Part shown: one piece after another, positions 469 to 13,025 of the stretch
Numbering within the stretch: position 1 is the stretch's first letter
Layout: each line of letters starts with the position of its first letter
Assembly: GCA_001564255.1 (NCBI GenBank)
Contig: LKNC01000054.1
Span: 1 to 13,025 of the forward strand
Length of the DNA: 13,025 bases
DNA from: Natrialbaceae archaeon Tc-Br11_E2g1
GTDB taxonomy: Archaea > Halobacteriota > Halobacteria > Halobacteriales > Natrialbaceae
Reading direction: 5' to 3'
Program-made: the position numbers and the translations under genes
Notes under the pieces: generated by a model
Seen by the model: the letters and a program-made list of their open reading frames with translations, nothing else
What the model was told of the DNA's origin: nothing
Database searches by the model: none

Positions 469-1118
469 CTCTCCGGGCCGTCGGGGACGTGGACCGACGC
501 GGCGAGGCTATACCCCGGCGAGAGTTCCTCGAGATCGAGCCCCAGCCCGTGTGCGTCGGCCTCGAGGACGCCCTCGAGAACCCAGCCGACCGCCTCGTAG
601 AAGGGGTGGTCGGCGACTTCCCGGACGTCGGCGGCCAGGTCCGGGAGCCACCAGCCGTGGGCCTCGAGGAACGCCCGTCGGGAGTCGTCGTCGCCGTCCC
701 GGGCGAGGATCTCGAGGGCAGCGAGGGAGACGGCGGCGTGGTCGGCTTCCTCGCGGAGCTGGTCGGACGGGAAGATCCCGAGGTCGCGATAGGAGCTCTT
801 GACGGCCGCGAGCGGTTTGCCGAGGTAGTCGTCGGCGTACCACGACTCGTGGACCTGGAGCCTCGGGCGTGGCCCGACGAACAGCCTGGTGTGGACCCGC
901 TTTAGCTCCTTGGCTTCCTCGGCGGGATCGTCGACCGTCTCCCGCCACTCCTCGAGTCCCTCGAGGCCGGTGTCGAGTGCCTGTGGTGTGGCTGACTCGG
1001 GGAGCGGTTCCGCTGTGAGTCCCTCGACGGCCGCCTCGTCGGGTGCGTCCGCGAGCACGCTCGAGCAGAACGCGTACAGTTGCGCGATCTCGGCTGTCTC
1101 GTCTACAGTTTCGGTCAT
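465..1118 (-). CDS. torD: TorD/DmsD-family molybdoenzyme maturation chaperone
   Basis: The product is 217 residues, the normal size for this all-helical cytoplasmic chaperone family. Such proteins bind the Tat signal or apo-form of an exported molybdoenzyme and hold it until the cofactor is inserted. Recognisable features are RLFVGPRPRLQVHESWY at about 78-94, a Y-x-x-x-G segment at 110-114 (YRDLG), and the acidic EEADHAAVSLAALE at 123-136, matching the family's EPDDH-type region. I chose the ATG at 1118; an in-frame TTG at 1133 would add only MLSHA. There is no Shine-Dalgarno sequence before the ATG. It lies 55 nt downstream of the membrane-anchor gene and overlaps yqeC by four bases. The likely client is the Tat-exported FdhA encoded upstream, which is inferred from position. 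Confidence 0.88.
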   Translation of the reverse strand: MTETVDETAEIAQLYAFCSSVLADAPDEAAVEGLTAEPLPESATPQALDTGLEGLEEWRETVDDPAEEAKELKRVHTRLFVGPRPRLQVHESWYADDYLGKPLAAVKSSYRDLGIFPSDQLREEADHAAVSLAALEILARDGDDDSRRAFLEAHGWWLPDLAADVREVADHPFYEAVGWVLEGVLEADAHGLGLDLEELSPGYSLAASVHVPDGPER

Positions 1119-1133
1119 GGCGTGTGACAACAA

Positions 1134-1156
1134 TTATAACGGGGTCGGGTTAAGTC
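1134..1156 (-). promoter_or_regulatory. Candidate internal promoter before torD
   Basis: The 55-nt gap between the membrane-anchor gene and torD contains two AT-rich patches on the minus strand: CTTAACCC near 1147-1154 and GTTATAATTG near 1131-1140. The first would place transcription start a few bases before the torD ATG. The second is too close to the ATG for a leaderless start. The gap could instead be an ordinary intra-operon spacer, so torD-yqeC may have its own promoter or be read from fdhA. Weak evidence. Confidence 0.3.
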
Positions 1157-1173
1157 GGTTGATTCGGTCGATG

Positions 1174-2253
1174 CTACATCGGGAGCACGATCGGCGTGAA
1201 CTCCCCGGCCAGCAGGTACGACAGCGTCAACGCGACCTTTCCGACGATCACGCAGACGGCTGCGAGGGCGTACGCCGTCGTCGCCCCGGAGGGTGCCAAC
1301 GCGTCACGACGCTGACCGAGGGCCGCGCCGGCCGTCAGGGCGATCGGAACGACGACGCCGACGACGACGCCGACGCCGACGAACAGCCAGGCGTAAGAGC
1401 CAACCAGGTTGTCGACGCCCGACTGTGCCTCCGGGACCTGTGCGGGCAGGGCGAGGACCGTCACGACGAGTGCGATAAGGGCCAACACGAGCAGTCCGGC
1501 ACCACTGAGCGCGGCCGTCTGGAGCTCCCGGCCGAGCGAGCGTTCGGTCACGGCCGTCAGACCGACGGCGGCGACCAGTCCCGCACCGAGCCCGCTAAAG
1601 ATCTGGACGGGGAGCAAGAACGTCTTGTCCCACAGCGGGACCCGGTCGTAGGGGCCAGAGCCCAGGGCCATCGCCGAGTAAACGAGGACGCCGGCGGCGA
1701 AGAGGCCGAAGAACGCCCCGAGTCCGAGCCGGGCGGGGCCGGAGGGACGAGTGGTGTCCGCCACCGTGTCGATGGTATCGAGGAGGCCGACTCGAGAGAC
1801 GATTCCGCGGACGCCGCCGACGGTCCGATCCCCGGTGGCCGCCTTGGCGGACCCACCGTCGGTTGCGACCTCCGGCGCGCTGGGCCGGGCCTTCCCGAAG
1901 GAGGTCCAGGCGAACATCAGGACGGTCCCGACGGCGAGACCACCGAGCATGTACGCGCCGATGGTCATCCACGAACCGAAGTTCGTCATCGACAGTGGGA
2001 CGAGCATCGCGCGAAACGGCGTCGCGAGGTGGGAAAGCAAGATCGGCGGTCCGATGAGGATGCCGGCCAGCCCGATGAGATACCCCGAAGAGGCGAGCCG
2101 GCCGTATTCGGGGGCGTTCAGTCGATGTGAGAGCACGTCGGCGACGTAGGCGGTCAGGTACGCGCCGCCTGCGAGTCCGAGCAAGGCGACGTAGACGGCG
2201 ACTTGCCAGTCCCACTGCGTGTACGGAAGTTCGAACGTGACTTCCACCGACAT
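1174..2253 (-). CDS. NrfD/PsrC-type membrane anchor subunit of formate dehydrogenase
   Basis: The product is 359 residues with about eight hydrophobic helices (roughly 17-38, 55-77, 95-118, 176-197, 211-232, 247-269, 284-311, 325-349). The N-terminal WQVAVYVALLGLAGGAYLTA is a typical NrfD-family first helix. An approximately 55-residue hydrophilic loop lies between helices 3 and 4. NrfD/PsrC proteins carry no haem and exchange electrons between a four-cluster Fe-S subunit and the quinone pool. The gene starts 2 nt after the stop of the Fe-S subunit gene, with GGAGG nine bases before the ATG. The in-frame open region extends upstream to 2400 inside the Fe-S gene, but that extension is Arg-rich and is an overlap artefact. 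Pairing this anchor with FDH, instead of a cytochrome b556 FdnI-type subunit, makes a DMSO/polysulfide-reductase-like architecture. Confidence 0.88.
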   Translation of the reverse strand: MSVEVTFELPYTQWDWQVAVYVALLGLAGGAYLTAYVADVLSHRLNAPEYGRLASSGYLIGLAGILIGPPILLSHLATPFRAMLVPLSMTNFGSWMTIGAYMLGGLAVGTVLMFAWTSFGKARPSAPEVATDGGSAKAATGDRTVGGVRGIVSRVGLLDTIDTVADTTRPSGPARLGLGAFFGLFAAGVLVYSAMALGSGPYDRVPLWDKTFLLPVQIFSGLGAGLVAAVGLTAVTERSLGRELQTAALSGAGLLVLALIALVVTVLALPAQVPEAQSGVDNLVGSYAWLFVGVGVVVGVVVPIALTAGAALGQRRDALAPSGATTAYALAAVCVIVGKVALTLSYLLAGEFTPIVLPM

Positions 2254-2255
2254 CG

Positions 2256-2861
2256 TTAGCTCCCTCCGGTGATTTTCTCCGCGTCGTCCCCGAAGATGAT
2301 CTGTGCAGCCTCGTCGGTAAACGGCACCTCGATCCCGTCCTGTTCCATCTTCTCCTCGAGTTCCTCGGGGGTGCCGAAGATGAGCGCGTCGGTCGGACAC
2401 TCCGAGGCACAGGCGGGCTCGAGACCGTGTTCCTGTCGGGGCTCACAGGTTGTACACTTGTCCATGAGCCCGTCGCTTTTCGCGCCTAGTGGACTGCTCT
2501 CTTCGGCGTCGGGAACCGTCTCGTCCGGGTACTGTGGCGCGCCGAAGGGGCACCCGACTGCACAGTAGTGACAGCCGATACAGGTATCGGCGTCCACCCG
2601 GACGGTGCCGTTGTCGCGGTAGAAAAGCGCCTCGGTCGGACAGACGTCGATACACGCCGCGTCCTCGCAGTTGTAACACTGCATCGGCTTGCTCGTTTCC
2701 TCTTCGGTCCCGTGGGCGAGGGCGACCACCTTGATGCGGTCGCTCTCCGGTGGGAGGTCCCATGTTCGCTGGCAGGCGACTTCACAGGCCCCACAGTCGA
2801 TACAGGAATCCCAGTTGGGGATCACTCGTGCCGTTCCTCCGTCTGACTCTTGTGTACTCAT
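2256..2861 (-). CDS. Four-[4Fe-4S] electron-transfer subunit (DmsB/FdnH-like)
   Basis: The product is 201 residues with sixteen cysteines in four groups: C20, C23, C26, C30; C62, C65, C70, C74; C94, C97, C100, C104; and C136, C139, C151, C155. This is the standard arrangement of the beta subunit of complex iron-sulfur molybdoenzymes, which wires electrons from the catalytic subunit to the membrane anchor. Signature pieces include CIDCGACEVAC, the CP after C74 and CPFGAPQYP. No transmembrane helix or Tat signal is present, unlike FdnH of E. coli, which has a C-terminal helix. This fits an NrfD-type anchor and export as a passenger bound to the Tat-signalled FdhA. It lies 10 nt after fdhA, with AGGTGA upstream as a probable weak ribosome site. 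The acidic linker 113-135 is of the haloarchaeal type. Confidence 0.92.
   Translation of the reverse strand: MSTQESDGGTARVIPNWDSCIDCGACEVACQRTWDLPPESDRIKVVALAHGTEEETSKPMQCYNCEDAACIDVCPTEALFYRDNGTVRVDADTCIGCHYCAVGCPFGAPQYPDETVPDAEESSPLGAKSDGLMDKCTTCEPRQEHGLEPACASECPTDALIFGTPEELEEKMEQDGIEVPFTDEAAQIIFGDDAEKITGGS
2263..2267 (-). promoter_or_regulatory. Shine-Dalgarno site of the NrfD-type gene
   Basis: GGAGG on the minus strand ends nine bases before the ATG at 2253 and lies inside the last codons of the Fe-S subunit gene. It fixes the start of the membrane anchor gene and argues against the longer in-frame extension. It is one of few clear ribosome sites in the window. Confidence 0.7.
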
Positions 2862-2871
2862 TGGTGTTCAC

Positions 2872-5838
2872 CTATCGCTTGTGGCGGTTCATGCGCTGTT
2901 CTTGCCACTGCAGTTGTCGCTCCGAGAGTTCGGGGACCTCGTCGTCGTCGGCCACGCGGACGTTACACAGGGTCGTCTTCGTCTCCTGCATCTGCGTCTC
3001 CCGGTCGTACGCCGGCGCGGTCCCGCAGTTGATCGTCTCGCCGATCACCAGCGGCTCGAGGCCGTCCGGGACGTTCTCCATGACCCTTTCACCCTCGAGG
3101 ATGCCCGACCAGTGGTACGGCGCGAACGCGTGATCGCGTGCGACCCGTTCTGTCACCCTCGTCTGGACGAACATCTCCGCGTGGGGTGTCGTGACGGCGA
3201 TCCAGTCGCCGTCCTCGACGCCGAGTTCGTCGGCCCGGTCGGGGTGGATCTCCAGGTACATCATCGGCGCGCGCGAGGCCGTACCGAGCGTACTCCGGGT
3301 CACCGCGCCCGCACCCTTGTGTTCGACCTGTCGTCCCGAGGTGAGGACCAGCGGCTCATCGAAATCACCCACGTCCTCGAGTTCGGTCATCGCGTCGATG
3401 TTGTCCTGTTGGACGGCCGCGTTGTCGAGTTCGACCCGCCAGTGGTCCTCGACGCGTTCGTTACACGGGAAGTCATCGACGAGGTCCGGTCGCGGGGTCA
3501 CCGCGGGTTCGCGGTGAACCGGGAACTCGTCGGTGAGGTTCCACGCTTTCGTCCGGGCACGGCCACGGCCCCACGGCGAGTCGGGCTGTGGGTTGTCGAA
3601 CTCCTCGTACATCTCGGGGTCGACGTCGTAACCCTCCTCGGCGAGCGCCAGGGCGGTGTCGTAGACCGACAGGTCGTCGTCCTCGGCGTACTCCATCGGA
3701 ATCGTCTTGGCGGCCGGCTCTTCCGGATCCGGGAGTACGGTCGAGAAAAGCGGGTACTGCGGGACGCCTTCGATCTCGTTGTCGCCGTCCCACCAGTCGG
3801 GGTCAAAGGAGTCCCGAAGCTGGTAGTTGTCCTCCGGACTCTCCCACCAGCGAGCACGGAAGTCCTGTCCGCCCTCGGCGGGATGTTTCGAGGCGTCGTA
3901 GAGGATCGGCGTTCCGGGGTGATCCTCGTGCCAGCAGGGCCAGGGCAGGCCGTAGTACTCGCCGTGAAGCTCGTGGTCCTCGTCGACGTCGGCTTTGAGG
4001 TCCGTGGGGCTGAACAGTTCGGAGTTCTCCTGGTGGGCCTTGAGTCGCTCGGGGGTGTGGCCAATGTAGCCGACCGATCGAACGCCGAGGTTCCACTCGC
4101 GGGTGACGTCCTCGACCTCGTCGTAGTCGAAGTGCTCGCCGAGACCGAGGTGTTCGGCGAACTCACAGAGCAGCTTCCAGTCGGCTTTCGAGTCGTGGCG
4201 GGGCTCGATCGCCTTCGAGCGCCACTGGACCTGCCGGCCGGTGTTCGTGACGCTGCCCGCCTCCTCGATGTTCGTCGCCGCCGGCAGCATGTAGACGTCC
4301 GTGTCGGTCTCGGCGAGTTCGGCGACCTGGTTCGGGAAGACGTCGACGTTGACGATGAAGTCCAGTTCGTTGACCGCCTCCCGGACCTTCCCGTACTCGG
4401 TGAGCGAGGCCAGGCCGTGTCCCCAAAAGATCGCCGCCCGGAGCGGATCGGGCTGGTAGATCTCCCACTCGTCGTCGAGGACGCCCTCGTACCAGCGGGC
4501 GACGGTGAAGCCGTTTTTCTCCATGAGCTCCTGGCGTCCCTGGAAGCGGTCCTCGAGTAGCTCCTCGTAGCTGATCTCTCCGGAGGTACTCGGCGTCTCC
4601 GACCAGACGTTCGCCCAGTGTTCCCAAGCACCCTCGTCTAGGCCGTAGTAGCCCGGAAGCGTACTCGAGTCGACCCCGAGGTCGGTCGCGCCCTGGACGT
4701 TGTCGTGGCCACGGAAGATCGGCGTGCCCCCGCCGGACTGGGCGGCGTGGCCGAGCGTGAGGTTGAGGATCGCGTACGCGCGGGTGTTTCCGGTTCCGTT
4801 GTTGTGCTGGGTTCCACCCATCGCCCACTCGACGCTGCTGACTTCGGCCTCGGCGAGCTCTTCGGCGAGTGCCTCTAGCTCCTCGACTTCCGTCCCACAG
4901 ACGTCCGACACCGTCTCGAGGTCGTACTCGGGGAGGACGTCCTCGCGGAACTCCTCCCAGTCCAGCACGCGGCTCTCGATGAACTCCTCGTCGTGGGCCT
5001 CGAGGTTTTCGACGATGTGGTAGACCAGCCCGTAGATGAAGGCGACGTCGGTTCCCGAGCGAAACCGGTAGTAGTCGTCCGACGCAGCCGCGGTCTTCGT
5101 ATAGCGGGGCTCGGCGACGATGTGTTTCCCGCCACGTCGCTGGGCCTCCTGGAAGAACTGCCAGGCGACGGGGTGGCTCTCGAGGGGGTTGTGGCCGATG
5201 ATGAGGTTCACACCGACGTTTCGCATGTCGTTCGAGTTGTTCGTCATCGCGCCGACGCCCCAGGTGTTCGCGATCCCCTCAACCGTCGTCGAGTGGCAGA
5301 TCCGGGCCTGGTGGTCGACGTTGTTCGTCCCGTAGATCGAGGCGAGTTTCCGGAACAGGTACGCCGCCTCGTTGGAGTGTTTCGCCGAGCCACACCAGAA
5401 CGTCCCGTGTGGGCCGGTCTCCTCGCGGATGTCCTCGAGGCGGCCGGTAATCTCATCGAGAATCTCGTCCCACTCCATGGCGACCCACTCCCCGTCCTCG
5501 AGTTTCAGTGGCTCTTTGAGTCGCTTATCGGAGTTGACCGACTGGGTGAGCGAGGCGCCTTTCGAACAGACGCCCCCGCGGTTGACCGGGTTGTCCTGCC
5601 ACGATTCCTGGCCGACGACCGCGTCGTCTTCGACCGACATCTGGACACCACAGCCGACCGAACAGTGGGTACAGACGGTTTTCACCAGGTCGTCGCCAGC
5701 GTCGGGATCGACGACGGCGTCCTCGTCGTCGTCCATCCGCTGGAGGAGTGTTCGCCCACCGACTGCCGTGGCGAGGGCGCCTCCTGCGCCGGCCTTGATG
5801 AACCCCCGCCGGTCGAGGTCTAATGATGAGTTTGCCAT
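2872..5838 (-). CDS. fdhA: Tat-exported Mo/W formate dehydrogenase, catalytic alpha subunit
   Basis: The product is 988 residues, close to the E. coli FdnG class. Residues 10-15 (RRGFIK) followed by a hydrophobic Gly/Ala stretch form a Tat signal. C56, C59, C63 and C91 form the proximal [4Fe-4S] site, and K93 in CSKG matches the conserved relay lysine. C181-H182 in ARICHSTTVEG occupies the place of selenocysteine-140 and His-141 of E. coli FDH-H, so this is a cysteine-type enzyme. MTNNSND (199-205), NPLESHP and RGHDNVQGATDLG (375-387, with R375 equivalent to Arg-333) are formate-dehydrogenase signatures and argue against DMSO or nitrate reductase. The C-terminal molybdopterin-dinucleotide-binding domain is present (LTSGRQVEHKGAGAVTR onward). 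It should oxidise formate to CO2 outside the membrane, passing electrons to the two following gene products. Mo or W cannot be decided from sequence. Residue equivalences are from memory of the family. Confidence 0.92.
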   Translation of the reverse strand: MANSSLDLDRRGFIKAGAGGALATAVGGRTLLQRMDDDEDAVVDPDAGDDLVKTVCTHCSVGCGVQMSVEDDAVVGQESWQDNPVNRGGVCSKGASLTQSVNSDKRLKEPLKLEDGEWVAMEWDEILDEITGRLEDIREETGPHGTFWCGSAKHSNEAAYLFRKLASIYGTNNVDHQARICHSTTVEGIANTWGVGAMTNNSNDMRNVGVNLIIGHNPLESHPVAWQFFQEAQRRGGKHIVAEPRYTKTAAASDDYYRFRSGTDVAFIYGLVYHIVENLEAHDEEFIESRVLDWEEFREDVLPEYDLETVSDVCGTEVEELEALAEELAEAEVSSVEWAMGGTQHNNGTGNTRAYAILNLTLGHAAQSGGGTPIFRGHDNVQGATDLGVDSSTLPGYYGLDEGAWEHWANVWSETPSTSGEISYEELLEDRFQGRQELMEKNGFTVARWYEGVLDDEWEIYQPDPLRAAIFWGHGLASLTEYGKVREAVNELDFIVNVDVFPNQVAELAETDTDVYMLPAATNIEEAGSVTNTGRQVQWRSKAIEPRHDSKADWKLLCEFAEHLGLGEHFDYDEVEDVTREWNLGVRSVGYIGHTPERLKAHQENSELFSPTDLKADVDEDHELHGEYYGLPWPCWHEDHPGTPILYDASKHPAEGGQDFRARWWESPEDNYQLRDSFDPDWWDGDNEIEGVPQYPLFSTVLPDPEEPAAKTIPMEYAEDDDLSVYDTALALAEEGYDVDPEMYEEFDNPQPDSPWGRGRARTKAWNLTDEFPVHREPAVTPRPDLVDDFPCNERVEDHWRVELDNAAVQQDNIDAMTELEDVGDFDEPLVLTSGRQVEHKGAGAVTRSTLGTASRAPMMYLEIHPDRADELGVEDGDWIAVTTPHAEMFVQTRVTERVARDHAFAPYHWSGILEGERVMENVPDGLEPLVIGETINCGTAPAYDRETQMQETKTTLCNVRVADDDEVPELSERQLQWQEQRMNRHKR

Positions 5839-5846
5839 ACGTCAGG

Positions 5847-5867
5847 ATTATTAAGGGGCTTAATATT
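5847..5867. promoter_or_regulatory. AT-rich palindrome overlapping the fdh core promoter (candidate operator)
   Basis: TATTAAG (5849-5855) and CTTAATA (5859-5865) form a perfect 7-bp inverted repeat around GGG. Extending outward by two bases gives eight matches in nine. It lies between the TATA-like box and the fdhA start and partly overlaps the box, where a bound repressor would block transcription. AT-rich promoters produce short palindromes by chance, so the assignment is tentative. Confidence 0.4.
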
Positions 5868-5870
5868 AAA
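5861..5870 (-). promoter_or_regulatory. TATA-like box of the fdh operon
   Basis: On the minus strand this reads TTTAATATTA, centred about 27-29 nt before the fdhA ATG at 5838. No Shine-Dalgarno sequence precedes that ATG. This is the expected spacing for a leaderless haloarchaeal transcript starting at or beside the start codon. Confidence 0.65.
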
Positions 5871-5930
5871 TCATGTGTTTTATTTCTGAGGCGTAGACGT
5901 GGCTGGCAACCTACATGTAAAACCCTTAAC

Positions 5931-5954
5931 TATAACTACCGGGACATTTAACCC
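5931..5954 (+). promoter_or_regulatory. Two nested TATA-like boxes before the AOR-like gene
   Basis: TATAAC (5931-5936) lies about 27 nt before the GTG at 5960, and ATTTAACCC (5946-5954) lies about 28 nt before the ATG at 5978. Each box is at leaderless spacing for one of the two in-frame starts. The sequence alone does not tell which is used; family length favours the ATG. Confidence 0.45.
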
Positions 5955-5977
5955 GTGCAGTGACCGAAACGCCCTCA

Positions 5978-7768
5978 ATGCCCATCGTGGACAGGATACT
6001 GCGAATCGACCTCACCGCGGGGAGTGTGACGAGCGAGGAGATCCCCGAGCCGTGGCTCGAGCGCTACGTCGGCGGGAAGGGGATCGGTGCCCGCTACCTC
6101 TACGAGGAACTCGAGGCGAGGGTCGACCCCCACGCGCCGGCGAACGTCCTCGCGTTCGTGGTGGGACCGCTGACTGGCTACACGCCAGGGGACCAGCGAT
6201 ACGCCGCGATCACCAAGTCCCCGCTGACAGGCACCTTCCTCGATTCCTATGCCGGCGGCACGTTCCCCGCCCGCCTCGCCGGTTCCCTCGGCGAGCACAT
6301 GGGCGTCCTCGTCACCGGCGAGGCCGACGAACCGGTCGTCCTCTCGATCGAGGACGGGGAGGGGTACCTCGAGGCCGCCGACGACCTGTGGGGGCTCGAC
6401 GCCGCCGAGACCTGCGAGCGGTTCCCCGACGCCGCCGTCGCCTGCGTCGGTCCGGCCGGAGAGGCCGGCGTCCAGTACGCGACGATCGCCTCCGACGGCG
6501 GCGACCACCACGCCGGCCGGGGTGGGGCGGGGACGGTGATGGGGGCGAAACAGCTCAAGGCCGTCGTCGCCCGCGGCCGCGAACCCGACCCCGACCGGCT
6601 CGCGGACCTGCGCGCGGCGTACGTCGACGCCTTCGCCGACAGCGACGCCGGCCGGTGGCTCGCAGCCAGCGATACCTTAGAGACGGTCGATTTCGCGAAC
6701 GAGGTCGGTGCCCTCCCGACCCGAGGCTGGCAGGAAGGCCGTTTCGAGGGTGCAGATCGGATCGGTATCGAACAGGCCCGCGAGCGTGCGAACGAGCGCG
6801 AACGACCCGACGATCCAGTCCCCGGTGGGTTCCGGATCGACAGCGACGAGGGCGAGAGCGTCCCACGCGGGGCGACCCCCATCTCCCTCGGGGCGGGCCT
6901 CGGCATCGACGACTTCGACGCGGTGGCCACGCTCGGAGCGGTCTGTGACCGACTCGCGATGGACGTCATCACCGCGGGCAACGCCGTAGCCTGGGCGATC
7001 CTGGCGAGCCAGGAGGGGTTGATCGACCGCGACCTCGAGTTTGGCGACGAGACGGCCGCCCGCCGGCTCATCGAGGAGATCGCCCACCGTTCGAGTCCAC
7101 TCGGGGACGCACTCGCCGGGGGCGTCGGGGGCGCGGCCGACCGCTTTGGCGGCGACGAGTTGATCCCCACGGTCAAGGGGATGGAGCTGTCCTCTTATGA
7201 CCCCCGGAGCGCGGAGGCGATGGCCCTGGCCTACGCCACGAGCGACCGTGGGGCCTGCCACCGGCGCGCCCGGCCGGTCGAACTCGAGGCGGTCTCCGGC
7301 GAGGAGTGGAGTGCCGACCGACGGATCTCGACGGTCATCGCCGAGCAAAACCGCCGAGCGGTGCTGTGGAGTCTCGTCGCCGACGACTTCCTCGAGGAGG
7401 TCATCGACCCCGAGTCCGGAGCCGAGTGGCTCGGTGCCGTCGGCTACGACATCGCGCCCGAAGAGGTCGCCCGCGTCGGCGAACGGATCTGGACGCTCGT
7501 CCGACTGTTTAACGTCCGTGAGGGCTTTACCCGCGAGGACGACGAACTGCCCGCGGCGCTCACCGATCCGTTAGAGGGCGGCCCACACGACGGGGCGGCC
7601 ATCGATCCCGATGCCTTCGAGGCCGTTCTCGAGGGCTACTACGCCGCCCGTGGCTGGGATCGACGGGGTCGGCCGACCAGCGACCTCCTCTCGCGGCTGG
7701 ATCTGACGGGGGTTCCCGACGGGGAGACACCCGTTCCCGAGGGTCCCGACGGGAGAACCGAGGGGTGA
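5978..7768 (+). CDS. Aldehyde:ferredoxin oxidoreductase (AOR) family protein lacking the Fe-S cluster ligands
   Basis: The product is 596 residues (602 if the GTG at 5960 is used; numbering here is from that GTG). AOR signatures are DRILRIDLTAGSV (11-23), GPLTG, TKSPLTGTF (85-93), GPAGE, AGRGGAGTVMGAKQLKA (185-201), LGAGLGIDDFDAV (310-322), YDPRSAEAMALAYATSDRG, and GERIWTLVRLFNVREGF (507-523). Compared with Pyrococcus furiosus AOR, recalled from memory, the C-x2-C-x3-C segment is RPDDPVPGGF (282-291) with no cysteine. The D-x-x-G-L-C motif is W470-SLVAD, and the catalytic Glu of PEYE is Ala305. Asn93 is Tyr97; the D330/D335 pair and H434 remain. Only four cysteines occur (152, 162, 329, 433). 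It is divergent from fdhA across a shared promoter region. The frame is intact, so it is probably a working but non-canonical protein; aldehyde oxidation is doubtful. The ATG is preferred because it gives the usual N-terminal length. Confidence 0.88.
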   Translation: MPIVDRILRIDLTAGSVTSEEIPEPWLERYVGGKGIGARYLYEELEARVDPHAPANVLAFVVGPLTGYTPGDQRYAAITKSPLTGTFLDSYAGGTFPARLAGSLGEHMGVLVTGEADEPVVLSIEDGEGYLEAADDLWGLDAAETCERFPDAAVACVGPAGEAGVQYATIASDGGDHHAGRGGAGTVMGAKQLKAVVARGREPDPDRLADLRAAYVDAFADSDAGRWLAASDTLETVDFANEVGALPTRGWQEGRFEGADRIGIEQARERANERERPDDPVPGGFRIDSDEGESVPRGATPISLGAGLGIDDFDAVATLGAVCDRLAMDVITAGNAVAWAILASQEGLIDRDLEFGDETAARRLIEEIAHRSSPLGDALAGGVGGAADRFGGDELIPTVKGMELSSYDPRSAEAMALAYATSDRGACHRRARPVELEAVSGEEWSADRRISTVIAEQNRRAVLWSLVADDFLEEVIDPESGAEWLGAVGYDIAPEEVARVGERIWTLVRLFNVREGFTREDDELPAALTDPLEGGPHDGAAIDPDAFEAVLEGYYAARGWDRRGRPTSDLLSRLDLTGVPDGETPVPEGPDGRTEG

Positions 7769-7808
7769 CGTCGTCCGCTGGGACGTTTGCCCTGTGACCG
7801 AGGCTGAC

Positions 7809-7842
7809 GTGACAGTCACCACTGGCGGTCGTTCACGTGAAC
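7809..7842. promoter_or_regulatory. Two palindromes upstream of the winged-helix gene promoter
   Basis: GTGAC-A-GTCAC (7809-7819) is a perfect odd palindrome and GTTCACGTGAAC (7831-7842) is a perfect 12-bp palindrome. The second ends about 15 nt before a TATA-like box at 7857-7863, just upstream of the expected TFB recognition element, where archaeal activators or autoregulators bind. Both lie in the 247-bp gap after the AOR-like gene. That the adjacent winged-helix protein binds them is inference. Confidence 0.45.
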
Positions 7843-7856
7843 CCGGCGGAACGAAC

Positions 7857-7863
7857 ATATAAC
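7857..7863 (+). promoter_or_regulatory. TATA-like box for the winged-helix gene
   Basis: ATATAAC within a GC-rich gap is the only strong AT-rich box between 7769 and 8015. It predicts transcription start near 7885, which would leave a leader of roughly 130 nt before the ATG at 8016. That is unusually long for a haloarchaeal gene. Confidence 0.5.
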
Positions 7864-7945
7864 CGGGCCGGCATAACATCAAGGTAGCAGGACGTTCGAT
7901 TCGGTACTGGTGGTCCGCCGGGCCCGAACGCGTGAGGAACCGACG

Positions 7946-8008
7946 ATGGCCGTCCGGTTCGATTCACACGCCGACACCCGGCGGAGTACCAGTCCCGGCG
8001 GATGGTGA
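7946..8008 (+). CDS. Possible 20-codon upstream reading frame
   Basis: An ATG at 7946 opens a frame of 20 codons (product begins MAVRFDSHADTRR) ending in TGA at 8006-8008, seven bases before the ATG of the winged-helix gene. It falls inside the predicted long leader. There is no ribosome site, and the product is basic rather than acidic, so chance is the more likely explanation. It is recorded because a short leader peptide immediately before a regulator start could affect its translation. Confidence 0.15.
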   Translation: MAVRFDSHADTRRSTSPGGW

Positions 8009-8015
8009 CCGCACT

Positions 8016-8411
8016 ATGGTATTCGATACACTCCTGGCCCGCCTGTCGTCTCTGTGGCGGTCGGACTCCTCCGGCGAGGACACGCCCGAAGAGTCCGACA
8101 CAGCGACGGCTGGCGACCGGGCCACGACGGACGACGAGATGTTGAGCTACGCAGACCAGGTCGAGTACGGCGTCGACGAACGCGACCTCGCCGACGAGGA
8201 CCGGATCCTCAGACTGCTCGTCGAACGCGGGGGACGGGTCGACAAGGCGACGATCCTCGAGAAAACCGGGTGGGGCCGGGACCACCTCGAGGCGGTCATC
8301 GCGGGGATGGAAGACGACGATCAGGTCAGTTCGATCACCGTCGGGCGAAACGAGGTCGTCTGTCGGCGCGGGTTCGAACCCAAAGGGTACCGATCGCACC
8401 TGGGGGAGTAA
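8016..8411 (+). CDS. Small winged-helix DNA-binding protein
   Basis: The product is 131 residues. The first half (1-55) is acidic and low-complexity (GEDTPEESDTATAGD). Residues about 58-118 fit a winged-helix fold: DEDRILRLLVERGGRVDKATI forms helices 1-2, LEKTGWGRDHLEAVIAGMEDDD the recognition-helix region, and QVSSITVGRNEVVCRRGF the beta wing. No ligand-binding domain or cysteine cluster is seen. I chose the ATG at 8016; a GTG at 7932 would add 28 residues of non-acidic sequence. It is preceded by two palindromes and a TATA box and may regulate itself. It follows the AOR-like gene on the same strand, so it could be a local regulator of the formate dehydrogenase/AOR region, but nothing directly shows its target. 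The specific family is not recognised. Confidence 0.75.
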   Translation: MVFDTLLARLSSLWRSDSSGEDTPEESDTATAGDRATTDDEMLSYADQVEYGVDERDLADEDRILRLLVERGGRVDKATILEKTGWGRDHLEAVIAGMEDDDQVSSITVGRNEVVCRRGFEPKGYRSHLGE

Positions 8412-8420
8412 CGGAAGCCG

Positions 8421-8437
8421 GCCGGTGGGGTTTTTCT
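8421..8437 (+). terminator. Candidate terminator after the winged-helix gene
   Basis: GC-rich GCCGGTGGGG is followed by TTTTT (8431-8435) and then CTCCC, ten bases beyond the stop codon. T-runs after GC-rich DNA commonly end archaeal transcripts. The same T-run lies about 27 nt before the ATG at 8461 and could instead act as the TATA-like element of the next gene. Confidence 0.4.
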
Positions 8438-8460
8438 CCCGGGGGATGCTCCGTCCAGGC

Positions 8461-9945
8461 ATGGCGTCCGGGGAACCAAGCGACCGGTGTGGGTTCGTCC
8501 TCGAGCGTGCGCGGCTGCCGACCCCCGTCCCCTCGAGGTGGGGCCTCGAGGCCGGCGAGTGGTACGAACAGTCCCGCGGGGTGTGCTGTCGCCGAAAGCG
8601 GTGGGACGGCCACGACCGGTGTGTCTGGCACGCCGACGTCGCCCACAAGTCCTGGCGGGACCTGCCGCCGACCGAACGGCTGGAACGTCTGGACGGGGCC
8701 GCCCTCCGTGGTGCGGAGATACGCGACCGGGTCGACTTCCTCGAACGTGGGCTCCGCGGGGCGGATTTCTCCGGGGCCCACCTCTCGAACGCGACCTTCG
8801 ACCGATCGCTTCTCAGGGTGACCGCCTTCGACGGGGCCGTGGCTCGAGGCGCAACGTTCACGAACGCGACCCTCGAGGGCGCCTCCCTCGTCGACGCCGG
8901 ACTCGCCGGGACGGCCTTCGACAGCGCCGTGCTCGTCGACGCCGACCTCTCAGGGTCGAACCTGCGAAACAGCGACCTCTCGCGGTCGATCGCCGTCGGC
9001 GCGACCCTCCCCGACGTGTCCCTCGAGGACGCCACGCTCGAGGGTGCCGTCTTGCGGGACACCGATCTCGCCCGTGGGTCGTTTCGAAACGCCTCGCTTG
9101 CGGACGCGACCCTGAAAGACGCCGACGCGACCCGGGCGAACTTCCAGAACGCCGACCTCTCCGACGGGGACCTCGTCGGTGCGGACCTCTCTGGAGCCGC
9201 CGTAGACGGCGGTACCCTCACCCGCTGTGATCTCTCGGAGGCGACACTGACCGACGTGACCATCCAGCGTGGGGTACTCACGGAGGCGAACCTGCGGGCC
9301 GCCACGGGGCCGCCTGCGACCGTCAGTCACACGACTCTCGCCGACGCGGTCCTCGAGGACGCCGACTTTTCGGGCGTCGACGCCCGCGAGGCCGACCTCA
9401 CCCGCGTTCGGGCGCGGGACGTCGATCTCTCCGGGGGCTCTCTCCGATCGGCGACCGCCGTCGGCGCGGAGCTGACCTACGCCGACCTCGCGGGAGCCGA
9501 CCTCACCCGGGCGAACCTCGAGGACGCACAGCTTTCCTACGCCACAGCCCCCACGGCGACGTTCTCCGGTGGGACCCTCTCGGGGGTCGCGCTGTGGGGG
9601 AGCGATCTCTCCGGGGCACGATTGCTCGACGTCGACGCCCGCGGGATAACCCTCCGCGACGCCACACTCTCGCGGGCGACCCTGGCCGGGGGTGAGTTCA
9701 CCGGCGCGGACCTCCGGGGAGCCGATCTGACGGGCGCGAGCCTCCGTGGGGCCACCCTCGTCGGTGTGGACCTCCGCGAGGCGGACCTCTCCGGGGCGAA
9801 CTTACAGAACGCCGATCTCAGGGGGGCGACACTACACGGCGCGACCCTCGAGCGGGCAACCCTCAAGGGTGCGACCCTGTCCGAACGACGGCTGGACGGC
9901 GTTTCCCTGGCCGGCGTCGACATAGACCGGGCCACCCTCGAGTGA
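8461..9945 (+). CDS. Long pentapeptide-repeat protein with Cys/His N-terminal cap
   Basis: The product is 494 residues. Residues 1-75 form a non-repeat cap with C10, C42, C43, C54 and H57 (CCRRKRWDGHDRCVWH), which looks like a small metal-binding or knuckle motif. From about residue 77 the chain becomes A(D/T)(L/F)xx pentapeptides. After a one-residue slip between I87 and F93, the central Leu/Phe register runs without any insertion to L493, giving about 81 pentapeptides or roughly 20 turns of a right-handed quadrilateral beta-helix. No signal peptide or membrane helix is visible. Pentapeptide proteins act in varied ways, including DNA mimicry (MfpA/Qnr), so the function is unknown. I chose the ATG at 8461; a GTG at 8425 and an ATG at 8446 are in frame but add residues outside the conserved cap. 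It starts 49 nt after the winged-helix gene. Confidence 0.88.
   Translation: MASGEPSDRCGFVLERARLPTPVPSRWGLEAGEWYEQSRGVCCRRKRWDGHDRCVWHADVAHKSWRDLPPTERLERLDGAALRGAEIRDRVDFLERGLRGADFSGAHLSNATFDRSLLRVTAFDGAVARGATFTNATLEGASLVDAGLAGTAFDSAVLVDADLSGSNLRNSDLSRSIAVGATLPDVSLEDATLEGAVLRDTDLARGSFRNASLADATLKDADATRANFQNADLSDGDLVGADLSGAAVDGGTLTRCDLSEATLTDVTIQRGVLTEANLRAATGPPATVSHTTLADAVLEDADFSGVDAREADLTRVRARDVDLSGGSLRSATAVGAELTYADLAGADLTRANLEDAQLSYATAPTATFSGGTLSGVALWGSDLSGARLLDVDARGITLRDATLSRATLAGGEFTGADLRGADLTGASLRGATLVGVDLREADLSGANLQNADLRGATLHGATLERATLKGATLSERRLDGVSLAGVDIDRATLE
8731..9942 (+). repeat. Coding tandem pentapeptide repeat array (15-bp period)
   Basis: This part of the gene encodes about 81 consecutive pentapeptides. 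At DNA level the 15-bp units are diverged but share a GCGACCCTCxxxGGx or GCCGACCTCxxxGGx pattern, with the middle codon for Leu or Phe. No insertion breaks the 15-bp period. The least typical units lie near 9301-9330, where ATGPP-ATVSH still keeps register. Confidence 0.85.
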
Positions 9946-9956
9946 CTGGACAACGC

Positions 9957-9963
9957 TTTTAGG
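9957..9963 (+). promoter_or_regulatory. TATA-like box before the 9986 gene
   Basis: TTTTAGG is centred about 27 nt before the ATG at 9986, and there is no Shine-Dalgarno sequence between them. This fits a leaderless transcript separate from the pentapeptide-repeat gene, whose stop is at 9945. The T-run may also help terminate that gene. Confidence 0.55.
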
Positions 9964-9985
9964 AACCCGACCGACTCCTGAGAGT

Positions 9986-10810
9986 ATGGGCGATGACGAC
10001 GGGCCGCTGGAGGACCTCCGGGAACTGCCGACTGTCGTCTCCCGGAGCTACGACGGCGTCGATCCCGGGACGCTCCTGACGACACTCGAAGGCCGACTCG
10101 AGTCCGGTCCGTACGGGAGGATAACCGTCGAGGAACTCTCCCTCGAGGGGTCCGATGGAAAACTGGTCGCGGTCACCGACCTCGAGGCCGCCGGGACCGG
10201 GACGGTCGAGTATCGCCCGTACGGCCCACACGGCGCGATGGCGGTCGTCGTCGGACTGCTGTTTGCACTCCCCTCGTTTTTCATCACGATCTTCCTCTCT
10301 TTCCTCGGGATGTACTTCTACGCCAAAGAGACGGAAGCCGAGTTTCCGGTCGCCCGCCGGACAGCGCTTCGGGCGCTTCTCACGGTAAGCGACGATGGCG
10401 AGACCACGACCGTCACCTACGCCGGGGACACGGTGCTCACGGTCGACACCGATCGTCTCCAGGGGTACGACCTCGCCCACCGGAAGGCGGTCGTCGCCGC
10501 CGTCACCGACTGGCACAGCCGGATCACGGACGGAAACCCGTACTACGAGACGTTCGACGACGTATTCTTCGGCCAGCACATAGACGCCTGGTGGAACCGC
10601 AACGCCGGTGCCGACGCCGAGACCGTCAGGGACCTCGAGGCCGAGATCCGGGAGCGACTCGAGTGGCAGGGGGCGTACACCGAGGGCCTCCTCGAGACGG
10701 CCCCGGAGTCCGCCTCCGAGGACCTGACGTCCGGACGGCCGACCGTCGACCTCGAGGCCATCGCCGAGGACCTGGATCGACACCTCGAACGCGGGGGAAC
10801 GAACGCCTGA
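9986..10810 (+). CDS. Unrecognised membrane protein with a single helical hairpin or helix
   Basis: The product is 274 residues and I do not recognise the family. A hydrophilic N-terminal part (1-80) is followed by one strongly hydrophobic stretch at about 84-112 (MAVVVGLLFALPSFFITIFL onward) that contains a Pro. It is either a long single helix or a tight hairpin. The C-terminal 160 residues are acidic and soluble, with beta-like DDGETTTVTYAGDTVLTVDTD, an aromatic patch (NPYYETFDDVFFGQHIDAWW at about 183-202) and a predicted helical tail rich in Glu/Arg. No catalytic motif or signal sequence is evident. The acidic composition and frame-long codon pattern support a real gene. It is convergent with the methyltransferase gene, with five bases between the two stops. 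Confidence 0.75.
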   Translation: MGDDDGPLEDLRELPTVVSRSYDGVDPGTLLTTLEGRLESGPYGRITVEELSLEGSDGKLVAVTDLEAAGTGTVEYRPYGPHGAMAVVVGLLFALPSFFITIFLSFLGMYFYAKETEAEFPVARRTALRALLTVSDDGETTTVTYAGDTVLTVDTDRLQGYDLAHRKAVVAAVTDWHSRITDGNPYYETFDDVFFGQHIDAWWNRNAGADAETVRDLEAEIRERLEWQGAYTEGLLETAPESASEDLTSGRPTVDLEAIAEDLDRHLERGGTNA

Positions 10811-10815
10811 TCGGC

Positions 10816-11859
10816 CTACCCCTCGAGTGGGACGTGTTCGGCCCGGTAGCCACCGTCGAGTTCTTCGACGTCGTCGACGGCGTACAGCCGGATCCCCGTC
10901 TCCATTTTCGTCATCACGGGCACGTCGTAGTGGTCGGCGTCGTACTCGAGGCCACCACCCTCCTCCCGGCGACGCCGAACGAACGCCCGGTGGTCCTCGA
11001 GGCGCTGGTCTCCGATCGCCCGCGAGAGGTGGTCGACCCCGGCGACCCGCTCGTCGAAGACCGGGACGAACTCGGACTCGAGTTCACAGCCCACGGAGTT
11101 CCGGCCGGCACACATCGCCGCGAGCGATGTCGTCCCCGTCCCCCAGAAGGGGTCGAGGACGGTGTCGCCGTAGGTCGAGAACATACAGACGAGCCGGTAG
11201 GGGATTTCGAGGGGGTAGGCGGCCGACCGCTCGCGGAGCTCGTCGCCCTCGAGCGCCTGGAGCTCGCCGGTGACGTCGGTCCAGACGTCGGTAAACCAGC
11301 GGTTGCGTTCCTCCCAGAAGTACGCCGCCTCGTACCGGCGGTCGGCGTAGGCCTCGAAACTCCGGGTCGAGGAGCCGTTCCGGAAGATCAGCACGTACTC
11401 GTGTTCTAAGGTGACGTAGGCGTTCGGCGGGATCATCCCGCTGCCCATGAACTTCGCGGCGCTGTTCGCGGGCTTTCGCCAGAGCACGTCCGGCAGCGGA
11501 GCGAAGCCACGCTCCTCGAAGGCTTCGGTGATCCGGACGTGATTGGGGTAGACCCGAAAGCTCCCGTCGACGCTTCGGGTCGCGTCGCCGACGTTGATAC
11601 AGGCGATCCCGCCGTCGACGAGCACCCTCGAGACTTCCTCCCAGACGCGATCGAGCCGGGCGTGCATCGCCTCGAAGGCGGCTTCCCCGTCGCCTGCTTC
11701 GAGGGCGTCCCCGATCGACGGCTCGAGGTCCACAAAGAGGTCGTCCCACAGTTCGATCATCGGGTACGGGGGCGACGTTACGACGAGTTCGACCGAGTCG
11801 TCTTCCACGTCGGCCAGCTCACTCGAGTCGCCGACGATGACGCGATGGGACGTCTCCAT
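10816..11859 (-). CDS. zim: Orphan beta-class N4-cytosine DNA methyltransferase, probably the CTAG methylase Zim
   Basis: The product is 347 residues. The catalytic motif TSPPY at 28-32 comes first, and the S-adenosylmethionine-binding motif DPFWGTGTT (236-244) comes after a central target-recognition region. This is the order of the beta class, and SPPY (rather than DPPY) points to N4-cytosine. VSRVLVDGGIACINVGD (76-92) and AGRNSVGCELESEF (251-264) are further conserved blocks. Halobacteria carry a conserved orphan m4C methylase, Zim, linked to CTAG methylation (HVO_0794 in Haloferax volcanii). The length, the lack of any restriction endonuclease gene nearby and the extreme rarity of CTAG in this window fit that identity. 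The naming is by recognition, not alignment. It starts 56 nt downstream of the acidic membrane protein gene and may be co-transcribed with it. Confidence 0.85.
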   Translation of the reverse strand: METSHRVIVGDSSELADVEDDSVELVVTSPPYPMIELWDDLFVDLEPSIGDALEAGDGEAAFEAMHARLDRVWEEVSRVLVDGGIACINVGDATRSVDGSFRVYPNHVRITEAFEERGFAPLPDVLWRKPANSAAKFMGSGMIPPNAYVTLEHEYVLIFRNGSSTRSFEAYADRRYEAAYFWEERNRWFTDVWTDVTGELQALEGDELRERSAAYPLEIPYRLVCMFSTYGDTVLDPFWGTGTTSLAAMCAGRNSVGCELESEFVPVFDERVAGVDHLSRAIGDQRLEDHRAFVRRRREEGGGLEYDADHYDVPVMTKMETGIRLYAVDDVEELDGGYRAEHVPLEG

Positions 11860-11915
11860 TGCCCCTCACTGTCGGCGTTTCCCCCTTAGCTTCTTCGTCA
11901 CCGACGTCGTCCGGC

Positions 11916-12449
11916 CTACTCCTCGTCCTCGCCGGCCGTGACACCCACGTCGTCTCCTTCGTCTCCGTCCGTCGTCGATCCGTCTTCGGGCTCGACTGCC
12001 GGTTCGAACTCCTCGATGGGTTCCCACTCCTCCGTTTCCTCGGAGGACCGTCGACGACGCAGGAGTGCGATCAGGCCGGCGATCCCCGCCACGACGGCGA
12101 GCTTGCGCAGACGGCTCCCGCCGGAGTCCTCGTCGTCTTCGGTTTCGGCTTGCGCCGTCTCCGCCTCCTCGACCTCCTCGGTCCCACCTTCCTGGTCGAT
12201 CAGGTCCTCGACGGGCTCGTCCTGGCTTTCGTCGCCTTTCCGCCGGGACCCGAGAATGTAGCCCACTGCGACACCGAGCCCCATAATCGCCCCCGTAAGC
12301 GGGACACGTCGCTTTTTCACCCCACCGTCGTCGGCGTCCTCGACCGCCTCGACGATCGGCTCTCGCATCGACGTCTCCATTCCTTTCCCGACCGCTTCCT
12401 TTACCACGCGCTCCGATAGGCCCGTTTCGTCGGTTTCGTTCTCGGCCAT
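11916..12449 (-). CDS. Acidic membrane protein with two short Gly-rich helices
   Basis: The product is 177 residues and no family is recognised. Two hydrophobic segments are visible: about 49-68 (VPLTGAIMGLGVAVGYILGS, flanked by KKRR and RRK) and about 115-131 (KLAVVAGIAGLIALL, followed by RRRR). The linker (70-112) and tail (135-177) are extremely rich in Glu and Asp and probably disordered. The basic flanks would put both helix ends with RRK/RRRR on the cytoplasmic side. I chose the ATG at 12449 because a TATA-like box lies about 26 nt upstream; the open frame runs 13 codons further to 12488 through that box. The gene precedes the methyltransferase on the same strand by 56 nt. Confidence 0.7.
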   Translation of the reverse strand: MAENETDETGLSERVVKEAVGKGMETSMREPIVEAVEDADDGGVKKRRVPLTGAIMGLGVAVGYILGSRRKGDESQDEPVEDLIDQEGGTEEVEEAETAQAETEDDEDSGGSRLRKLAVVAGIAGLIALLRRRRSSEETEEWEPIEEFEPAVEPEDGSTTDGDEGDDVGVTAGEDEE

Positions 12450-12471
12450 ATTCCGCTCGAGTACATCAATG

Positions 12472-12478
12472 TAAATAG
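12472..12478 (-). promoter_or_regulatory. TATA-like box of the 12449 gene
   Basis: On the minus strand this reads CTATTTA, centred about 26 nt before the ATG at 12449. There is no Shine-Dalgarno sequence between, so a leaderless transcript is expected. It may also drive the methyltransferase gene downstream. Confidence 0.6.
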
Positions 12479-12660
12479 TTCTGTCCAACGTTTCGATGGG
12501 TTCTCTCGGGACGCCCGTCGGTACACACGTCTTACCGCTCCGGTCCCGTCCCGGTAATATCCGACTAACCGGTATCCGTCACAGCCGGCTTCGACGTTCA
12601 GCGCCCGCACAGACCGGTACGAAGATCTGTTCGACCCCGGCGTCGAGACGGCGGCCGGAC

Positions 12661-12676
12661 CGCCTCCCGGGAGGCG
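12661..12676. repeat. Perfect 16-bp GC-rich palindrome
   Basis: CGCCTCCCGGGAGGCG reads the same on both strands. It has no spacer, so as RNA it would fold poorly without opening the centre; a protein-binding site is an alternative. It lies about 150 bp upstream of the rightward gene start and 210 bp upstream of the leftward one. Confidence 0.5.
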
Positions 12677-12782
12677 ACGGCGGCCTCGAGGGGGAGGTGG
12701 ATGGACCCACGCCGTCGGACAGAACGGCGTTTCGCCCCTCGAAACCACCGTTGCCGGATTTCCGTCCTCTGGTCTGTCAGTG

Positions 12783-12801
12783 AATAATAGATCCCATAAC
12801 G
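12783..12801 (+). promoter_or_regulatory. Candidate promoter of the right-edge gene
   Basis: ATAATAG (12783-12789) and CATAACG (12795-12801) are the only AT-rich patches before the right-edge gene. The first suits a leaderless start near 12819 slightly better, and the second suits 12828. Weak evidence. Confidence 0.35.
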
Positions 12802-12827
12802 AAGCGACGCCGGGATCGATGGGACGT

Positions 12828-13025
12828 ATGAGCGTCATCCGGCAGCCTGGGGTGCTCGGTCGGACGACACAGCGGCGACTCGTCGGGGTAGCCGCGGCGG
12901 TTTCCGCGGCGGCGATCGAGACGGTCGCCTTTACGCTCTGGTTCGTCCTCGTCGTCGACTCCCGGTCGCTCTCGGCGGCACTCGCCGGCCTCGGCTTGCT
13001 GTTCTGTGGTGCCCTGCTCAGGACC
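12828..13025 (+). CDS. N-terminal part of an unrecognised membrane protein (runs off the window)
   Basis: Sixty-six codons are present with no stop before the right edge. After a basic N-terminus (IRQPGVLGRTTQRRLVG) there are two hydrophobic segments, at about 18-43 (AAAVSAAAIETVAFTLWFVL onward) and 49-64 (SAALAGLGLLFCGALL), separated by DSR. This fits a multi-helix membrane protein with a cytoplasmic N-terminus. An in-frame ATG at 12819 would add MGR and cannot be excluded. No family could be assigned from this fragment. Confidence 0.6.
   Translation, partial: MSVIRQPGVLGRTTQRRLVGVAAAVSAAAIETVAFTLWFVLVVDSRSLSAALAGLGLLFCGALLRT

Follow-up and report, generated by a model that had tools for sequence, protein, structure and literature searches.

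Background

The closest described relatives of the protein treated here belong to the AOR/WOR family, e.g., the Pyrococcus furiosus enzyme (PfAOR, 1aor), FOR (1b25), 9mqx and WOR83 of Haloferax volcanii (9q1t). The cysteine motif of the [4Fe-4S] cluster occurs in 99 % of the family members, and the fourth cluster cysteine is hydrogen-bonded by the proximal pterin (PMC10413684); the section on this motif does not describe the remaining members. Aldehyde-oxidising members carry a second-shell set of Thr243, Glu313, Tyr427 and His448 (PfAOR numbering). Glu313, with a role in proton transfer, is called universally conserved in known AORs (PMC12096430; also PMC13328260), while the equivalent Glu of the Aromatoleum enzyme is given as 82 % conserved in the family (PMC10413684). 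The usual second-shell residues are missing from BamB and YdhV; by the description in PMC12096430, a Cys of the protein ligates the metal in these clades, whose redox chemistry is known or assumed.

Two further systems, those around FdhD and YqeC, are related to the locus by task or gene content. FdhD is the usual sulfuration factor of formate dehydrogenases (FDH). In M. extorquens, fdhD is essential for a W-FDH, and the path of MoeA1, MobB, MobA and FdhD finishes the bis-pterin cofactor and hands it to the FDH (PMC13197769). YqeC has been proposed as an accessory protein of selenium-dependent molybdenum hydroxylases, its gene lying together with yqeB and YgfJ-family genes (PMC2276186). Formate use has been demonstrated for Halodesulfurarchaeum (PMC5437934), which shows that functional FDHs exist among haloarchaea; for most of the species considered here FDH activity is a prediction from genes, which counts against the explanation proposed below.

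The haloarchaeal protein AORx resembles the AOR/WOR family in a near-full-length match, in Thr243, Tyr427 and His448 and in several cofactor contacts, but lacks the cluster cysteines and Glu313, has Arg for Glu311 and Gly for Tyr312, and is tied to FDH and YqeC genes. It shares with the YdhV and BamB clades the lack of the usual second-shell residues (PMC12096430). The task proposed below is that of FdhD and the M. extorquens path, yet no sequence relation to FdhD was found. Like the YqeC/YgfJ (MocA-type)/SelD module (PMC2276186), AORx loci place a YqeC-family gene near a nucleotidyltransferase and a molybdoenzyme; here, however, the molybdoenzyme is an FDH, the transferase is closest to MobA, and AORx is added. 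The titles and beginnings of abstracts searched, with subscription papers and supplements outside this scope, contained neither a cluster-less haloarchaeal AOR clade nor a link between YqeC and FDH. The main text of PMC13328260 has neither of the word stems 'haloarch' and 'Halobacteria' and names halophilic archaea once, for Clade 83, which is described in PMC9424855.

Methods

The window is the whole stretch of DNA analysed, 13,025 nt of Natrialbaceae archaeon Tc-Br11_E2g1 (GCA_001564255.1, LKNC01000054.1, positions 1-13,025, forward strand). AORx is the name used here for the Cys-less AOR-family gene and protein of the window and for its clade. Cluster positions refer to PfAOR (1aor). The list of second-shell residues was taken from PMC13328260 and PMC12096430. 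Arg76 and Gly95 were equated with pterin contacts of the Aromatoleum enzyme by adding one, and its Asp361 was taken as Asp343, a correspondence of numbering only.

The alignment was assembled from 120 homologues listed of 2087, from ORFs of the best 80 among 133 loci of named genomes and from paralogues of the own genome. Nine rows, being fragments or broken or duplicate ORFs, were left out (two of L061, L067, two of L068, L072, L084, L005 and P0001). Later, 107 of 112 further proteins listed in a search with a Cys-bearing relative were added, the five short ones (P0186, P0187, P0189, P0203, P0211) being omitted. The final alignment compared 190 AORx rows (two collections with some copies; 177 distinct sequences, 119 groups at 90 % identity) with 128 Cys-bearing relatives.

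Gene neighbourhoods were sampled by profile searches at 67 haloarchaeal loci among the best 80 of 133. The neighbour profiles were built from the neighbours at the same loci, and their representatives were identified independently. Co-occurrence was counted in 242 genomes of the haloarchaeal class. AORx was found in 120 of them at E<=1e-150; this count was too low because genes matched in two pieces were missed, and a repeated search of the 122 negatives at 1e-70 added 13 genomes with split matches. Among the AORx genomes, the seven that had no TIGR01591 match were searched for a relative of the window's FdhA; this search did not include three YqeC genomes with neither TIGR01591 nor AORx.

Results and discussion

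AORx and the genes of the window

The reading frame of AORx runs uninterrupted from GTG 5960 or ATG 5978 to its stop codon (Table 1). A Pfam scan places the protein in the AOR/WOR sequence family, with AFOR_N at 210.7 bits (cut-off 29.8) and AFOR_C at 316.1 bits (cut-off 27) as its only matches; the FdhD domain PF02634 was not matched. Among PDB sequences, 9mqx, 1b25 and 1aor match over about the whole length (E 1e-84 to 3e-73) and 9q1t matches at E 2e-69. The AOR domain starts almost at the N-terminus, and inspection by eye revealed no twin-arginine signal.

On the minus strand, diverging from AORx, lies the gene row yqeC-torD-nrfD-fdhB-fdhA. The FdhA has a twin-arginine (Tat-like) start, DRRGFIK, as judged by eye; since AORx has none, a role in assembly is more likely for it than that of a subunit in the exported enzyme. 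The yqeC gene, absent from the first-pass annotation of the window, follows directly after torD as an open frame with the YqeC domain from about 26 residues in. The region between fdhA and AORx is likely a shared control region of both genes, and the same divergent order occurs in two other loci (L008, L066). Farther along the plus strand, a 506-aa pentapeptide-repeat protein (8425-9942) is preceded by a DUF7343 protein (7932-8411).

Table 1 Features of the window (nucleotide positions; residue numbers of AORx counted from ATG 5978)
Feature	Position	Strand	Description	Basis
yqeC, cut by window edge	1-507	-	TIGR03172 118.2 bits (cut-off 73); neighbour-YqeC profile 253 bits	
TorD-type molybdoenzyme chaperone	465-1133	-	PF02613 59.4 bits; other TorD models below cut-off	
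NrfD-type membrane subunit	1174-2253	-	PF03916 54.6 bits	
fdhB-like, ferredoxin-type subunit	2256-2861	-	NF038355 126.5 bits, below cut-off of 240	
fdhA-like, FDH catalytic subunit	2872-5838	-	Cys-His motif ARICHSTTV; TIGR01591 451 bits, below cut-off of 666	
Divergent intergenic region, fdhA/AORx	5839-5977	.	AT-rich	
AORx	5978-7768	+	596 aa from ATG 5978; alternative start GTG 5960 gives 602 aa	ORF list, Pfam
Thr233 (PfAOR Thr243)	6674-6676	+	kept in 190/190 listed rows	
Lost cluster site 1	6803-6832	+	RPDDPVPGGF (residues 276-285) replaces C-x2-C-x3-C (PfAOR C288, C291, C295)	alignments
Lost active-site acid block	6866-6874	+	residues 297-299 R-G-A replace E311-Y312-E313	alignment
His428 (PfAOR His448)	7259-7261	+	kept in 190/190 listed rows	
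Lost cluster site 2	7370-7387	+	SLVADD, within WSLVADDF (464-471); Asp469 replaces PfAOR C494	alignments

Loss of the [4Fe-4S] cluster site

The first-pass annotation had held that all four cysteines of the [4Fe-4S] cluster are lost, and the alignment to 1aor bears this out. The P. furiosus numbering it gave (C288, C291, C295, C494) was correct, the reference having Cys at all four positions. None of these cysteines is present in any of the 190 listed AORx rows, which thus lack the cluster site of the redox members. At the position of C494 all 190 listed AORx rows have Asp, whereas all 128 listed Cys-bearing relatives have Cys. All four cysteines are present in 127 of these 128 relatives, the sole exception being a distant Bathyarchaeota row (L083) in which the third is missing. 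Intermediates between the two groups were not found among the rows aligned. The whole protein of the window has four cysteines, at 146, 156, 323 and 427 in ATG numbering (given earlier as 152, 162, 329 and 433), with no C-x2-C among them and hence no cluster site, as had been noted. Cys323 and Cys427 align with PfAOR C337 and C447, positions that are Cys in all 190 listed clade rows; the loss is therefore specific to the cluster sites. Being common to all 190 listed rows of one clade, the loss is due neither to chance nor to an assembly error, and the question whether a clade shares it, raised with the first observation, is answered. The six other AOR-family loci of the own genome have kept the four cluster cysteines and Glu313; the genome (G000) thus holds seven AOR-family loci though it is incomplete (67.7 % complete).

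Loss of the active-site acid and conserved residues

A second loss was overlooked in the first-pass annotation: Glu313 is Glu in none of the 190 listed AORx rows and is replaced by Ala, Ser or Gly. Glu311 is changed to Arg in 189 and Tyr312 to Gly in 190 of these rows; E311 and E313 are kept in all 128 listed Cys-bearing relatives. The earlier statement that the surrounding AOR blocks are well kept needs correction for the E-Y-E block of the active site (PfAOR 311-313). Of the second-shell set of the aldehyde-oxidising members, Thr243 and His448 are retained in all 190 listed rows and Tyr427 in 187, and Glu313 is missing throughout. By itself, the loss of Glu313 does not end redox chemistry, considering its 82 % conservation (PMC10413684) and the second shells reported for BamB and YdhV (PMC12096430). 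With cluster and Glu313 both missing, aldehyde oxidation by the accepted mechanism is not expected of AORx. An enzyme that passes electrons or hydride straight to a partner (an FDH cluster, F420 or NAD) without a [4Fe-4S] cluster of its own would fit the close genetic link to FDH and electron-transfer subunits, and redox members without the usual second-shell residues exist in BamB (PMC12096430). We consider it very unlikely, as Glu313 is gone together with the cluster in every listed member and the Tat-like start of the window's FdhA has no counterpart in AORx.

The positions that contact the cofactor are largely conserved in the listed AORx rows, with Arg76 in 180, Gly95 in 190 and Asp343 in 190 of 190. 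Asp in place of the fourth cysteine could preserve the hydrogen bond to the pterin. AORx has His for Arg182 and Trp for Asp489, yet neither is a marker of the clade since its closest Cys-bearing relatives usually have His182 as well, and some also have Trp489. Sixteen positions are nearly invariant and clade-specific in the listed AORx rows. These patterns bear on a scaffold or regulator free of cofactor, for which the AOR fold would serve only as a protein-protein platform, either in assembling FDH or for YqeC. The missing catalytic and cluster residues and the linkage to FDH and YqeC would agree with such a role; a pure scaffold would, however, have no need for the invariant or nearly invariant residues that contact or surround the cofactor (Arg76, Gly95, Asp343, His448), and we regard it as unlikely.

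Origin and selection

In a tree of 100 chosen rows (69 Cys-less and 31 others) the Cys-less proteins stood on one side of a branch with an SH-aLRT support of 100, requiring one change. As they form one clade among Cys-bearing relatives, the phylogeny indicates that the cluster cysteines were lost a single time. A wider tree of 93 chosen rows had P0223-P0225 as the nearest Cys-bearing rows, of which P0224 is named Hadarchaeales. Over 40 close AORx pairs, dN/dS had a median of 0.21 and a maximum of 0.285; AORx is under purifying selection, conserved and no relic. Together with the intact frame this agrees with the first-pass annotation, which had argued against decay by frameshift.

Gene neighbourhoods in other haloarchaea

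The genetic partners of AORx are YqeC, a MobA-like nucleotidyltransferase and FDHs that vary in architecture. The representatives of the neighbour families were assigned as YqeC (TIGR03172, 160.6 bits, cut-off 73), FdhA (TIGR01591, 745.8 bits, cut-off 666) and a transferase of PF12804 that is closest to MobA but stays below the cut-off of the MobA model (99.6 versus 151.85 bits). At the 67 haloarchaeal loci from the best 80 of 133, FdhA was encoded near AORx in 38 and YqeC in 36, of which 35 within 1 kb. TorD and an HdrA/MvhD-like protein were found at 21 and 20 loci, respectively, and the MobA-like transferase at 13. In 57 of these 67 loci AORx was accompanied by one or more of the three proteins YqeC, MobA-like transferase and FdhA. 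The remaining ten had none of the three within the stretch examined, which counts against an explanation by FDH maturation. The expectation of the first-pass annotation that such a clade might sit beside fdh genes thus holds for many genomes. None of the three was encoded at six loci of Cys-bearing haloarchaeal relatives (9-16 kb each).

All 30 neighbouring FdhA ORFs examined have the Cys-His motif of FDH, in several subtypes. Their lengths are roughly 710, 910-1060 and 1100-1200 residues, and the partners are NrfD, HdrA/MvhD or NuoF-like proteins. With the motif constant and the architecture variable, an accessory role of AORx fits better than that of a fixed subunit. A role of AORx as partner of another AOR was dropped, a second AOR ORF being present in three of the 67 loci, two of them at distance 0. 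Two further neighbour families were seen at these loci. Cluster c7 (e.g., L039:9725-10783 and L013:15415-16425; the L039 member matches DUF7124) occurs in 22 of 67 loci. Of its 23 hits, 20 lie no more than 1 kb from AORx, and no family member was found in the window. Cluster c4 (e.g., L042:10929-11324), of about 130 aa, is near AORx in 15 of 67 loci, its representative having no Pfam or NCBIfam match.

The composition of the neighbourhoods also bears on a non-redox tungsto- or molybdopterin enzyme, in which Thr243, Tyr427 and His448 would serve hydration, isomerisation or lyase chemistry on a formate-linked C1 compound. Acetylene hydratase, of another family, is a precedent for such non-redox chemistry. 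The conservation of these three residues around the metal site and the steady link to FDH genes are in line with this activity. We nevertheless judge it unlikely, because both metal-adjacent acids are gone (Glu311 to Arg, Glu313 to Ala, Ser or Gly), the tightest genetic tie is to the cofactor-maturation genes YqeC and MobA-like transferase and not to a single pathway enzyme, and the FDH partners differ in architecture.

Co-occurrence in haloarchaeal genomes

AORx was present in 133 of the 242 genomes and not found in 109. YqeC occurred in 170 genomes, including all 133 with AORx (Fisher p 3e-34); no genome among the 242 was positive for AORx and negative for YqeC. TIGR01591 (E<=1e-160) was matched in 172 genomes and in 126 of the 133 with AORx (Fisher p 2e-20). 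The remaining seven have a relative of the window's FdhA, hence an FdhA-type gene is present in 133 of 133. As a control, NarG was uninformative, with no match in the 242 genomes at the threshold chosen, and NasA was used instead. NasA correlated weakly with AORx (OR 1.9, Fisher p 0.02), which counts against our preferred explanation. Stratification within genera gave z values of 6.6 for YqeC (15 informative genera), 4.3 for FDH (15) and 3.0 for the NasA control (14).

Of the 167 genomes that combine YqeC with an FdhA-type gene (160 recognised by TIGR01591, seven by the relative of the window's FdhA), 34 had no AORx; the protein is therefore not obligatory and not needed by every such FDH. Two of 20 examined among these 34 genomes (G044, G185) have a YqeC of the SelD-linked kind. 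Its absence from 109 genomes, 34 of them with both partners, would be in line with a decaying paralogue or a hitchhiker that lies near FDH genes by accident. This origin is disfavoured and in our view extremely improbable: against it stand the low dN/dS, the clade-specific, nearly invariant positions, the co-variation with YqeC within genera and the lack of any AORx genome without YqeC.

Twelve genomes have a TIGR01591 protein without YqeC. At seven of their loci (L118, L121, L123, L124, L126, L127, L129) FdhA was readable as the longest frame, and there it shows an LTEH or ITEH variant of its own; at the remaining five another protein occupies the longest frame. The LTEH/ITEH variant represents an FdhA-like subtype of 757-798 aa with an NRLCH motif, observed in the YqeC-less genomes G014, G039, G087, G157, G228, G236 and G237.

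FdhD, YqeC and selenium

FdhD (PF02634) was found in none of the 242 haloarchaeal genomes, and the same search was positive in 8 of 14 control genomes including methanogens. PMC11448449 assigns YqeC to selenium-dependent hydroxylases and mentions a C. difficile deletion without obvious phenotype, which counts against our preferred explanation. SelD exceeded its cut-off in 13 of the 145 genomes searched, and 73 of the 84 AORx genomes examined had no SelD over cut-off. In a YqeC tree of 41 rows, three SelD-linked proteins and those of G044 and G185 lay on one side (support 100/100), the other 36, including that of the window, on the opposite side. The AORx genomes differ from those of the SelD module in both respects, i.e., mostly no SelD over cut-off in the genomes examined and a YqeC of a separate clade. 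From this split and the scarcity of SelD, there appears to be a second role of YqeC in haloarchaea, one linked to FDH. A SelD-YqeC pair was seen in the own genome (G000:C38:4367-6249) and at similar places elsewhere, its YqeC falling outside the FDH-linked clade. The tree did not bear out the idea that AORx goes with a single YqeC subtype, as AORx-positive and AORx-negative genomes mix in the main YqeC clade. AORx appears to be an add-on in most but not all genomes with an FDH-linked YqeC.

Proposed function

The first-pass annotation had suggested a role without electron transfer, e.g., as a cofactor carrier, and such a role fits best. The kept cofactor frame and the partners in maturation speak for a protein that carries the FDH cofactor or provides a platform for it. 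Four points absent from the first-pass annotation, namely loss of the E-Y-E block, the truncated yqeC in the window, the tight association with YqeC and the failure to detect FdhD, shift weight towards cofactor maturation and away from a non-redox enzyme. On this comparative genomic basis, we give about even chances to AORx being a protein of AOR fold that, acting with YqeC, carries the FDH cofactor or serves as a platform for its maturation. The cofactor-free scaffold and, slightly less probable, the non-redox enzyme are the main alternatives. The protein would no longer be an aldehyde oxidoreductase and would serve FDH maturation in haloarchaea. It may still bind tungsto- or molybdopterin. 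Asp469 would stand where PfAOR has Cys494, beside the proximal pterin, and Arg297, the substitute for Glu311, would hold a ligand of more anionic character. AORx would then present the cofactor for a YqeC-dependent finishing, e.g., a sulfuration or a metal or dinucleotide maturation. Alternatively, it might pass the cofactor to FdhA in the cytoplasm, elsewhere the job of FdhD. More tentatively, it is possible that haloarchaea, in which no FdhD was detected, mature their FDH via YqeC and that a tungsten enzyme stripped of cluster and acid carries the tungsto- or molybdopterin on which YqeC installs the terminal chalcogen ligand.

Conclusions

By the published description, all members of the AOR/WOR family bind a W or Mo bis-pterin and 99 % of them a [4Fe-4S] cluster. 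The AORx clade, present in more than half of the haloarchaeal genomes sampled, departs clearly from this picture, having lost the cluster together with the catalytic acid and kept the cofactor frame. Through its association with FDH, YqeC and a MobA-like transferase where no FdhD is detectable, it offers an entry to the role of YqeC and to an FdhD-free maturation of FDH. If the proposed function is true, AORx would be, within the literature searched, the first member of the AOR family to deliver a cofactor in a non-redox role, and it may possibly help in the heterologous production of Mo/W formate dehydrogenases.
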